Below, piece after piece: positions 51,662-64,000 of a stretch of 64,000 nucleotides of DNA. Within the stretch, counting starts at the first letter, position 1. Each line of letters opens with the position of its first letter. The notes beneath the pieces were generated by a model. That model was given only the letters and a program-made list of their open reading frames with translations. It ran no database searches and was not told where the DNA came from. Source of the DNA: a bacterium. Its GTDB lineage: Bacteria > Desulfobacterota > Binatia > DP-6. The translations under genes and the position numbers were made by a program. The stretch is taken from contig JAHCID010000008.1 in NCBI GenBank assembly GCA_026129405.1, positions 1-64,000 of the forward strand, in the 5' to 3' direction.

Positions 51662-53101
51662 ATGCCGAAGACACCGCCCGAGGACGACGTCACCCTACCG
51701 TTCCCCGTCGCACCCGTCTCCAACATGGAGTGGGTGCCGAACGGGATCACTCCGAAGCAGCGTGTCGCCGCGCAGCTGATCCGCGAGGAGACCGAAGCGC
51801 GCGCCAAGCGCCACGGTCTGACGCGCGGCCAGTTCCTGCGTACCGCGGCCGCCACCGCGACGGCCTTCATGGTGCTGAACAAGCTCCACGGCCTCGACCA
51901 GTCCGGCGACGCCGCCGCGATGCCGCTCAAGAAGGTGCACTGCGACGACATCGCCGCCGGCCGTGAGCTGCTCGGCCGCAAGCTGTTCGTGATGGACGTG
52001 CAGCAGCACCACGTCGACACCGCCGCCTTCCCGGGCACCGGCACGTGCTTCCTCGCCTTCACGCCCGAGCTGCGCGCCAACTGCCCGGAGAGCATCGCGC
52101 AGAACAACTTCATCCGCGAGGTCTACGTGAACAGCGAGACCGACGTGGGCGTGATCAGCGGGCTGCCCTACGGCGCACCGATGGGCCCGGACGCGATGGC
52201 GGCGACGCGCGATCTCATCAACCAGCTGGCCGGCTCGGAGCGCGCGCTGTCGCAGGCGATCATCGATCCGAAGGCGCCGCAGGGAACCGTGACGTCGCTC
52301 GAGACGCTCGAGTATCAGGTGAAGACACTGAAGGGCCGCGCCCTCAAGACCTACACCTACTCGTACGACGGCTGGCGTCTCGACGACGAGGACCTCGCGT
52401 ACCCGATGCTCCAGAAGGCGCAGGATCTCGGGCTGCGCCTCGTCAACTGCCACAAGGGGCTGCCCGCGATCTTCGCGCGGGGCAGCTCCGAGTCGGTGCG
52501 GACGACGGATTTCCCGAAGGTCGTGCGCGACTTCCCGAAGCTCAACTTCTGCGCCTACCACTCGGGCTGGTTCCAGGACGACACCCATCCCGAGGGCAAG
52601 CTCGGCAACTCCGAGTTCATCGAGATCGTCCAGGCGATGCCGAAGAAGCATCGCAAGCGCTGCTACGCCGAGATCGGCAGCACGTTCGCGTTCATCCTGC
52701 TCGATCAGGGTCCCGAGGGGGCGGCTCGCTTCATGGGCCAGCTCCTGAAGACGTTCGGCTCGCGCAACATCCTCTGGGGCACGGACTCCATCTGGTGGGG
52801 CTCGCCGCAGTTCCTCATCGACGCCTTCAAGAACCTCCAGATCCCGGCGCCGATGCGGGAGCAGTACGGCTTCCCGCAGCTCACCGAGCGCGTGAAGAAG
52901 CGCATCCTCGGCGAGAACGCCGCCCGTCTCTACGGGGTCAAGCGCAAGGCCAAGCGCTGCACCATCAACGTCGATCAGCTGGCGACGCTCCAGGAGGCAC
53001 AGGGCGGGGCCCGCGAGGGACGCAGCCTGCGCTGGTGGGGACCGCAGACGCGGCGGCAGTTCTTCGCGATGCTCCGGCGCGAGAAGCAGCTGGTCGGGTG
53101 A
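51662..53101 (+). CDS. Exported amidohydrolase-family (ACMSD-like) metal-dependent hydrolase
   Basis: This 479-residue protein follows a strong GGAGGGGGAAGC site. After a charged 45-residue region comes a Tat-like signal with only one of the twin arginines (LTRGQFLRTAAATATAFMVL). The TIM barrel of the amidohydrolase-2 family shows FVMDVQQHHVDT, where the usual HxH appears as QxH, then a metal/base His in RLVNCHKGLP, FCAYHSGWF and the late Asp in WGTDSIWWG. The reaction may be a decarboxylation or hydrolysis; the substrate is unknown. It lies 47 bases upstream of the copper monooxygenase gene in the same direction. Confidence 0.75.
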   Translation: MPKTPPEDDVTLPFPVAPVSNMEWVPNGITPKQRVAAQLIREETEARAKRHGLTRGQFLRTAAATATAFMVLNKLHGLDQSGDAAAMPLKKVHCDDIAAGRELLGRKLFVMDVQQHHVDTAAFPGTGTCFLAFTPELRANCPESIAQNNFIREVYVNSETDVGVISGLPYGAPMGPDAMAATRDLINQLAGSERALSQAIIDPKAPQGTVTSLETLEYQVKTLKGRALKTYTYSYDGWRLDDEDLAYPMLQKAQDLGLRLVNCHKGLPAIFARGSSESVRTTDFPKVVRDFPKLNFCAYHSGWFQDDTHPEGKLGNSEFIEIVQAMPKKHRKRCYAEIGSTFAFILLDQGPEGAARFMGQLLKTFGSRNILWGTDSIWWGSPQFLIDAFKNLQIPAPMREQYGFPQLTERVKKRILGENAARLYGVKRKAKRCTINVDQLATLQEAQGGAREGRSLRWWGPQTRRQFFAMLRREKQLVG

Positions 53102-53148
53102 GGGCTCTTCGGAAAGGGAGCGGCCGCTCGGGCCGCAGGAGGTTCGCA

Positions 53149-55074
53149 ATGATGGGGACGATCTCGCGCGGGCTCGCGCTCGCGGCCATGGCGCTCGTCG
53201 GCAGTGCACAGCTCGCGGCCGCGCAGAGCGAGTGCATGACGTCGAAGTGCCAGAACCTCGCCGCCATCTCGGCGATGCAGACCGGCATCGCCGGCGAGTG
53301 CGACTGCGCGGGCGCGACCAACGCCAAGAAGTACATGCAGTGCGTGAAGAAGTCGCTGAACGCGGCGATCGCGTCGGGGGGCTTCCCGCGTAGCTGCAAG
53401 ACGGCGGTGGCGCGCTGTGAGGCGGCCGTGGGCTGCGGCAAGGGCCTGCGGCCCTTCCGCACGATCCAGACGGTCTTCACCCAGAGCTGCGCGCTGTCGA
53501 CCTGCCACTCGACGCTCACGCGCCAGGGCGGCCTCGTGCTCGAGTCGGAGGAGGTCGCGTACGCGGCGCTCGTCGATCGGCCGGCCTCCCACCCCGAGGC
53601 GGGCGGCGCGAAGCTGGTCGTGCCCGGCGATCCGAAGTCGAGCTTCCTCGTCCGCAAGCTGCGCGGCACCGCGCCGGGCGACCGCATGCCGGTGGGCTCG
53701 CAGCTGTCCGACGGCACGATCAAGCTGATCGAGCGCTGGATCGATCGCGGCGCGAAGACGACGTTCGACGAGTGTCCGCCCTCGGACGGCAGCGGCAAGA
53801 AGCGTAAGGGCAAGAAGGCCTGCAACGACCGCCCGCTGCGCACCGGCAACTTCGTCTGGGAGCCGCAGCCGGCCCTCGAGCCTCCCGCGCCGGGCACGGG
53901 TCTCCAGCTCTACACGCCGAAGCGCGACGTCGTCCCGGGCACGGAGTGGGAGACCTGCTTCGCGTTCAAGAACATCCCCTGGCAGCAGCTCGGCCTCGCG
54001 GCCGGCTACGCGCCCGGCGAGACGCCGATCATCAAGAAGCAGACGTACCGCATGCACGAGGGCAGCCATCACCTGCTCCTGTACGCGTACTTCGGGCCGA
54101 CGCCCGAGGGCTGGGCCGACGGCTTCTTCCCCTGCAACGCCGCCAACTGCGAGTCCGAGAACCCGAACGACTGCCCGCCCGACGCCAGCCAGTACACGAT
54201 CCCGATCGGCGGCACGCAGGTGGCGGGCACGCGCTACGAGGTGAACTACCCGGAGGGCGTCGGCATCCCCGTGCTCACGCCCGATACGGTGCTGATCGCC
54301 AACCTCCACTACACGAACCCGTTCCAGCCCGCGCAGCCGATCTACTCCGAGGCCTGGCTCAACCTCGACTTCTACAAGCCGGGTGAGTTCAAGGCGATCC
54401 TCGACGGCATCTTCGCCATCAACTACCAGGACCTCTTCGTCGAGCCCTACACGTCGAAGACCTACTCGCGCATGTGGATGCCGCGCGGGCTGCTCTCGGG
54501 CGGCTCGACCGACGCGGCCGTGTTCCAGCTCTTCGGCCACATGCACAAGCGCGGCACGGAGTTCCAGATCGACATCGTGCGCGGCGGCACGTGCTCGGGC
54601 CGTCCGGACTGGGCGTGCGGGCGCGACGACGACTGCCGCTGCTGGCCGGGCCGCGGGGGCGGCGGCGGCTGTCCGAAGGACCAGGTTTGCAACAAGCCGG
54701 CGGGCGCCGAGGATGCGCCCATCTACTACACGTCGGCCTGGGACCGGGCCCCGGTGGTCGAGTACCAGAAGCCGTACCTCCTCGTGGACAAGACGGAGGG
54801 CCTGCGCTGGACGTGCACGCACACGAACGGCGTCGAGGGCGATCCGTCGAAGCCGCCGAAGCGGTGCCACGAGAACTGCGGCTCGTGCGGCTGGGACGCG
54901 GCCACCCGGACCTGCATCTTCCGCCGCGGGGTGGCGCAGGGCTACCACACCACGCTGCGCACCTACGCCGAGGGCGAGCCCATGCCGGTCGTGTTCGGCG
55001 AGCTGGCCGACGACGACATGTGCAACATGTTCGGCTACTTCATCAAGCAGGCCGACCTGCCGCTCCTGCCCTGA
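53149..55074 (+). CDS. Secreted copper type II (PHM-like) monooxygenase with cytochrome-like domain
   Basis: This 641-residue protein has AGGAGG 6 bases before ATG 53149 and signal peptide GLALAAMALVGSAQLAAA. Residues about 28-100 are a cysteine-rich helical head. Residues 105-205 form a cytochrome-c-like domain with C114-x4-C119-H120 (CALSTCH). From about 255 the PHM/DBH fold shows both copper sites: CuH with H307, H308 (GSHHLLLYAY) and H387 (ANLHYTN), and CuM with H464, H466 (FGHMHKRG) and M624 (DDDMCNMFGYF). All six ligands of ascorbate-dependent monooxygenases are present. It presumably hydroxylates a substrate outside the cytoplasm; the substrate is unknown. Confidence 0.8.
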   Translation: MMGTISRGLALAAMALVGSAQLAAAQSECMTSKCQNLAAISAMQTGIAGECDCAGATNAKKYMQCVKKSLNAAIASGGFPRSCKTAVARCEAAVGCGKGLRPFRTIQTVFTQSCALSTCHSTLTRQGGLVLESEEVAYAALVDRPASHPEAGGAKLVVPGDPKSSFLVRKLRGTAPGDRMPVGSQLSDGTIKLIERWIDRGAKTTFDECPPSDGSGKKRKGKKACNDRPLRTGNFVWEPQPALEPPAPGTGLQLYTPKRDVVPGTEWETCFAFKNIPWQQLGLAAGYAPGETPIIKKQTYRMHEGSHHLLLYAYFGPTPEGWADGFFPCNAANCESENPNDCPPDASQYTIPIGGTQVAGTRYEVNYPEGVGIPVLTPDTVLIANLHYTNPFQPAQPIYSEAWLNLDFYKPGEFKAILDGIFAINYQDLFVEPYTSKTYSRMWMPRGLLSGGSTDAAVFQLFGHMHKRGTEFQIDIVRGGTCSGRPDWACGRDDDCRCWPGRGGGGGCPKDQVCNKPAGAEDAPIYYTSAWDRAPVVEYQKPYLLVDKTEGLRWTCTHTNGVEGDPSKPPKRCHENCGSCGWDAATRTCIFRRGVAQGYHTTLRTYAEGEPMPVVFGELADDDMCNMFGYFIKQADLPLLP

Positions 55075-63301: not shown

Positions 63302-64000
63302 TCAGTGCCGGACCGTCACCGTGACCCGGCTGTCCTGCTGCACGCAGGTCATGAACTCCTGCTTGCTGAGCGTCGGGTAGTAGAACGCGAACAGGTTGCA
63401 GTGCTCGTTGTCGTCGGTGAAGGGTCCGAAGGTGTAGTCGCGATCGGTGTCGTTCTCGTAGGTGCAGGTCCACTCGATGCCGGGGATCTGCGCCTGCTCG
63501 CCGGCGGCGAAGCGACGGAACGTCGGCTCGTCGTAGCCGTGATACTCGTAGAGGGGCGTGCCGGTCTTCTCGCCGTCCCACACGTGGGCGGTGAACTTCA
63601 CGCCGCGGAAGTGGTAGTGCCCGGTGAGCGCGAGCAGGTCGACCGGCCGATCGAAGACGCAGCGGGTGGTTGCGGTGGCGATCGAATGCGCGGGCACGAC
63701 CACGTCTTTGTCCTGCCCGAAGAGCGCGCCCGCGTACGACGTCACCTTGCGCTCCGGAATCGCGTAGAGGTTGTAGATCGCCCAGCCGTCCGCCGGCGTC
63801 GAGAGCGCGCCGTTGTCGACGAAGTGCGTCTGCGCCGCGAGCTGCTCGCGCGCGGTGAAATGGAAGGCGATGCCGTCGGGCAGCTTCCAGTTGAGCAGCA
63901 CGCTCTGGCTGCCGAGGATCAGCTGCCAGACGTCGAAGTCGAGCGCGAAGTTGCACGTCTCGTGGCCGTTCTCGATCGACAGCGTGCGGTCGTGGGGCCG
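63302..64000 (-). CDS. Copper type II (PHM-like) monooxygenase, C-terminal part, truncated at window edge
   Basis: The gene enters from beyond position 64000. The 232 visible residues resemble the C-terminal half of PHM/DBH copper monooxygenases: THFVDNGAL (like the CuH third His), ALTGHYHFRG (HxH of CuM) and DNEHCNLFAFYYP near the end. In the last motif the Met expected as CuM axial ligand (as in the paralogue's DDDMCNMFGYF) is replaced by His. The N-terminal part with the HH motif lies outside the window. The length suggests a long gene continuing to the right. The substrate is unknown. Confidence 0.7.
   Translation of the reverse strand, partial: RPHDRTLSIENGHETCNFALDFDVWQLILGSQSVLLNWKLPDGIAFHFTAREQLAAQTHFVDNGALSTPADGWAIYNLYAIPERKVTSYAGALFGQDKDVVVPAHSIATATTRCVFDRPVDLLALTGHYHFRGVKFTAHVWDGEKTGTPLYEYHGYDEPTFRRFAAGEQAQIPGIEWTCTYENDTDRDYTFGPFTDDNEHCNLFAFYYPTLSKQEFMTCVQQDSRVTVTVRH

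Follow-up and report, generated by a model that had tools for sequence, protein, structure and literature searches.

A 64,000-nucleotide stretch of contig JAHCID010000008.1 from an uncultured bacterium of the Binatia (hereafter the window) encodes a predicted exported protein in which a c-type cytochrome domain is fused ahead of a copper domain homologous to those of PHM and DBH. PHM and DBH have mainly been described in eukaryotes, where ascorbate is the donor, and animals make peptide hormones and noradrenaline with such oxygenases. We propose that the bacterial protein is a dicopper monooxygenase whose coppers would be reduced through its tethered His/Met haem, and we regard this reading, in which a substrate would be hydroxylated and a neighboring hydrolase would act in the same pathway, as moderately probable. 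Searches of openly accessible papers turned up no account of a protein that joins cytochrome c to PHM, which within that scope argues weakly for novelty.

Organization of the locus

Both open reading frames lie where the initial annotation placed them, and each residue that it named in the copper protein (C114, C119, H120, H307, H308, H387, H464, H466 and M624) occupies the position given (Table 1). The AGGAGG of the copper-protein gene ends six bases 5′ of the ATG, and scanning of the gap between the two genes revealed neither promoter-like nor terminator-like sites. Taken with the short gap and the recurrent neighborhoods described below, this makes it plausible that the hydrolase and copper-protein genes form an operon, as had been suggested.

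Table 1. Coordinates in the window of the hydrolase gene, the copper-protein gene and their predicted features.
Feature	Coordinates	Strand	Basis
Amidohydrolase-2 family protein, 479 aa	51662..53101	+	PF04909 E 1e-20; homologue alignments
AGGAGG ribosome-binding site of the copper-protein gene, in the 47-base intergenic gap	53137..53142	+	Sequence
Cytochrome c-PHM fusion protein, 641 aa	53149..55074	+	
Predicted signal peptide of Sec type, lacking a lipobox (about residues 1-26)	53149..53226	+	Sequence inspection
Cysteine-rich head, residues 27-98, exchangeable module	53227..53442	+	
PSCyt1-like cytochrome c domain, about residues 99-207	53443..53769	+	PF07635; FoxE profile match
CALSTCH haem-attachment motif (C114, C119, H120; CX4CH)	53488..53508	+	Motif count, alignment
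M180, probable second axial haem ligand	53686..53688	+	Column unchanged across 36 sequences
Dicopper domain of PHM/DBH type carrying cysteine-rich inserts, residues 226-641	53824..55071	+	Profiles, ligand alignment
H307-H308, CuH ligands (predicted)	54067..54072	+	Alignment to PHM/DBH
H387, third CuH ligand (predicted)	54307..54309	+	Alignment to PHM/DBH
H464 and H466 (HMH), CuM ligands (predicted)	54538..54546	+	Alignment to PHM/DBH
M624 (DDMCN), CuM Met ligand (predicted)	55018..55020	+	Alignment to PHM/DBH

The signal peptide of the copper protein is followed by a cysteine-rich head. Similar heads recur on other proteins of the same genome (L002, L003 and L005), and the closest relatives of the copper protein carry EF-hand/dockerin-like repeats at the corresponding position. 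The head was considered as a part of the enzyme, and this was rejected because it is exchanged in relatives; judged from these comparisons, it is a module of its own that can be exchanged. Several relatives resemble lipoproteins, and for the copper protein a periplasmic location is as likely as an extracellular one.

The copper domain is related to PHM and DBH

Single-sequence searches of Pfam, NCBIfam and the PDB with the window copper protein gave no PHM match, and neither PF01082 nor PF03712 matches it above cut-off. Since relatives do match, we take this miss to be a limit of the models: an HMM iterated from the relatives linked the window protein to proteins of the same class that match PF03712 (Cu2_monoox_C), a model that recognizes 21 of 28 copper domains from the class.

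The relationship to PHM and DBH is apparent from several comparisons. First, a profile of 28 homologous copper domains (A2) finds DBH as its best profile match (4zel, E 1.1e-12) and PHM at E ~1e-12, with the ligand columns in register in both. Second, the five His columns (H307, H308, H387, H464 and H466) are invariant in all 28 domains, at identities down to about 19%. Third, the domains were split so as to avoid the circularity of the 28-domain profile, with A3 containing six sequences (the window-protein clade and two distant relatives) and A7 containing 16 other copper domains of the same class; hhalign joins the two with a probability of 99.9 (E 7.6e-35), and A7, which is without the window clade, matches PHM at E 2e-12. 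Because the A3 profile alone has no PDB match and does not reach PHM, membership of the window protein in the PHM/DBH family rests on transitive profile evidence through its relatives.

By these profile comparisons the C-terminal half of the protein is a PHM/DBH homologue, and the claim that it has all six ligands of the two copper sites stands; the ligand pattern, given the conservation of the His residues and the DBH and PHM profile matches, is far beyond chance. An AlphaFold model of the whole copper protein from a three-sequence alignment is of very low confidence (pLDDT 31).

On a tree of the copper domains a single event suffices for the change of the CuM Met to His in one subclade. A second PHM-like gene is present at the right edge of the window (63302-64000, minus strand) and runs past it (L084:3306-4220); its product is a stand-alone protein that matches PF03712 above cut-off and has a His (NEHC) replacing the CuM Met.

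The N-terminal module is a cytochrome c domain

The initial annotation had described a fused cytochrome-like domain with a CX4CH motif, and profile and alignment evidence bears it out. PF07635 (PSCyt1) scores 25.3 bits on the isolated domain and 20.1 bits on the whole copper protein (cut-off 22), and a 36-member profile of the cytochrome module has FoxE as its closest solved structure (E 8e-6). Invariant columns in the 36 aligned modules include both Cys residues, the His, a Met and a Pro. The Met corresponds to M180 within DRMPVG, which had not been named in the initial annotation.

The module precedes 42 of the 55 distinct copper domains examined from the same bacterial class, and the fused state is spread across most of the copper-domain tree. 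Among these 42 fused members the haem motif is CX4CH in 37, CX5CH in five and CXXCH in none, and the downstream Met-Pro is present in every one. The window protein has a non-standard motif relative to the CXXCH by which c-type cytochromes are defined; the idea that its CX4CH is a one-off degenerate motif was rejected, as the motif is conserved across the family. The other 13 copper domains have no fused cytochrome within the DNA seen, although some of these loci end at contig ends, and L068 and L142 are labelled cytochrome-less on the tree only because their loci are cut. Since 13 members are found without it in the DNA seen, the module does not seem essential to the copper fold. Its profile matches and conserved residues mark the N-terminal module as a cytochrome domain of the c type, and haem loading is predicted.

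Two further observations concern cytochromes at other loci. Modules with the unusual CX5CH spacing (e.g. CAFTGVCH) lie ahead of PHM-type domains at L112, L113, L116, L117 and L152. Stand-alone secreted cytochromes, both with CX4CH, are encoded on the minus strand at L007:3910-4677 and L008:4095-4760, divergently from the nearby copper gene, and are possible electron donors.

Distribution of the family

The copper family is present in 46 of 145 genomes of the class, with at least 15 PHM-like matches in each of several (G101-G105). Three genomes from a different family within the class contain the closest relatives of the window protein, which share about 60% identity with it. When the phylum was sampled with 395 genomes and at most five candidates were scored in each, no relative turned up outside the class. 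NCBI places one related record (L008) in the Myxococcota. Several of the scanned members have no copper family above its Pfam cut-off, and these sequence data suggest that the family is large and largely unrecognized.

The neighboring hydrolase

The hydrolase has conserved metal-site residues (H264, H300 and D375) and has QxH in place of HxH. The latter had been pointed out in the initial annotation and is a conserved feature of a subfamily: QxH is present in 28 of the 29 rows covering the motif (the window hydrolase included, and a few rows being near-copies) and HxH in one. The Tat-like leader ascribed to the protein is Tat-like in general character but lacks the twin Arg, having a single Arg only (LTRGQFLRTAAAT); most relatives have RR, within SRRxFLRTAAGT, at the position of the RG of the window hydrolase, and we read the leader as a degenerate Tat-like one. 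A profile of the hydrolase found no match in the PDB.

A homologue of the hydrolase adjoins a fused copper gene in four genomes (that of the window, G068 at L007, G094 and G095). These represent three independent contexts with differing gene order, compared with 0.16-0.32 expected (p ~0.0006-0.004, a rough estimate that assumes one gene per kb). In G058 and G063, which belong to the same taxonomic family, the hydrolase orthologues are without a copper gene in their vicinity. The recurrent adjacencies together with these exceptions therefore indicate that a functional link between the hydrolase and the copper protein is likely but loose, and we consider it moderately supported.

At two loci a hydrolase homologue is followed by a separate c-type cytochrome gene (L075:8418-9119, minus strand, and L079:5018-6289, plus strand), one product being a single-haem CXXCH cytochrome and the other multihaem. 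The multihaem cytochrome downstream of the homologue at L079 is in G067, and in G101 a gene for a secreted CXXCH cytochrome lies 45 bases downstream of the hydrolase orthologue.

A proposed mechanism and its alternatives

We propose that CuH would be bound by H307, H308 and H387 and CuM by H464, H466 and M624, and that O2 would be activated at CuM and a C-H bond of the substrate hydroxylated. A c-type haem, attached via C114 and C119 and axially ligated by H120 and M180, would receive electrons singly from a periplasmic donor and hand them to the coppers, filling the role that ascorbate has in animals. Such haem-to-copper electron transfer is predicted and plausible. The initial annotation had gone further and suggested a self-sufficient oxygenase, which the chemistry does not support: a turnover of PHM consumes two reducing equivalents, one at each copper (PMC6123673), and a single haem can store only one electron, so that it must be recharged from outside the protein. 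The amidohydrolase is probably in the same pathway and may act on the oxygenated product, by analogy with PAM, in which the hydroxylase product goes to a second metal enzyme. Gene duplication would have given rise to the many paralogues per genome, probably with differing substrates.

There are alternative readings of the fusion. PHM receives its electrons from ascorbate (PMC6123673), some members of the family are without the cytochrome module, and the myxobacterial cytochrome c TfcP works without electron transport (PMC8833165); the copper domain might take its electrons straight from ascorbate or some other small reductant, with the cytochrome module having a role in docking, in stability or in a separate redox reaction. 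We consider this unlikely, although it deserves some weight. The CX4-5CH motif and the MP are kept throughout the fused members, and Met as the second ligand, unlike the His/Cys ligation of TfcP, leads one to expect a potential in the high, canonical range (canonical cytochromes c being near +250 mV, as cited in PMC8833165).

It is less likely again that electrons flow in the reverse direction, with a substrate or metal ion being oxidized at the copper domain and its electrons being passed by the haem to the respiratory chain, so that the protein would be an oxidase or dehydrogenase and not an oxygenase. The resemblance of the cytochrome module to FoxE, an iron-oxidation protein, is in keeping with this, and the neighboring stand-alone cytochromes could serve as acceptors as well as donors. 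However, the FoxE match is weak and reflects the general cytochrome fold, and the full complement of PHM/DBH ligands, CuM Met included, is the one that O2-activating hydroxylases have.

The large cysteine-rich inserts, the massive expansion of paralogues and the subclade with His for the CuM Met might instead point to a non-catalytic copper protein with a PHM fold and a role in storage, delivery or sensing, but this is very improbable, as both copper sites are exactly retained in divergent paralogues and a redox module is attached. Slightly fainter still is the prospect that the cytochrome-like module no longer binds haem and is a structural N-terminal domain on a plain PHM homologue, for although CX4CH and CX5CH depart from CXXCH and an AlphaFold model of the domain alone from five sequences is of very low confidence (pLDDT 44), 36 divergent members all keep both Cys residues, the His and the Met, published surveys include CX4CH among the haem motifs that they count (PMC5566968; PMC10734462), and the genome has cytochrome c assembly genes (three PF01578, Cytochrom_C_asm, matches over cut-off).

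If reduction of the coppers through the tethered haem is correct, then members of this family may draw their electrons from a haem of their own in place of vitamin C. The crossing of about 11 Å by electrons between the PHM/DBH coppers is a long-standing question, and a natural haem-tethered PHM would offer a spectroscopically visible one-electron donor for studying copper-copper transfer. The size of the family and the fact that Pfam and NCBIfam recognize it poorly point to an overlooked pool of exported C-H oxygenases, and laboratory-made CuM mutants would have a natural counterpart in the His-for-Met subclade. We suggest more tentatively, and with somewhat less than even confidence, that there is a large, unrecognized class of bacterial oxygenases with PHM-type dicopper sites fed by a tethered c-type haem, duplicated much as P450 sets are to at least 15 copies in a genome, and including the subclade in which the CuM Met is replaced by His.

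Comparison with known systems

The copper region of the window protein is homologous to PHM, the catalytic core of PAM, and the six copper ligands are in register (H107, H108, H172, H242, H244 and M314 in PHM). The window protein differs from PHM in being bacterial and predicted to be exported, in its N-terminal c-haem module and in its large cysteine-rich inserts. The ligand spacings are 79/77/158 compared with 64/70/70 in PHM, with the inserts accounting for most of the longer last interval, and no lyase domain such as that of PAM was found in the window copper protein. DBH, the best profile match, shares the same ligand set but is an ascorbate-dependent animal enzyme, and it carries an N-terminal DOMON domain where the window protein has the cytochrome c domain. 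Bacterial PF03712 proteins belong to the same wider family, within which the window protein, with no PF03712 match of its own, represents a cysteine-rich, cytochrome-fused branch.

The cytochrome module shares with the planctomycete-type PSCyt1 domain (PF07635) and with FoxE the CH motif and the Met-Pro of the second ligand, but in the fused family CX4CH or CX5CH replaces CXXCH and the module is joined to a putative copper oxygenase. A precedent for a cytochrome c tethered in a copper enzyme is the three-domain copper nitrite reductase (PMC13324648), which has an unrelated cupredoxin fold and a C-terminal tether and reduces nitrite, but embodies the same design idea, in which a c-haem donor is fused to a copper enzyme.
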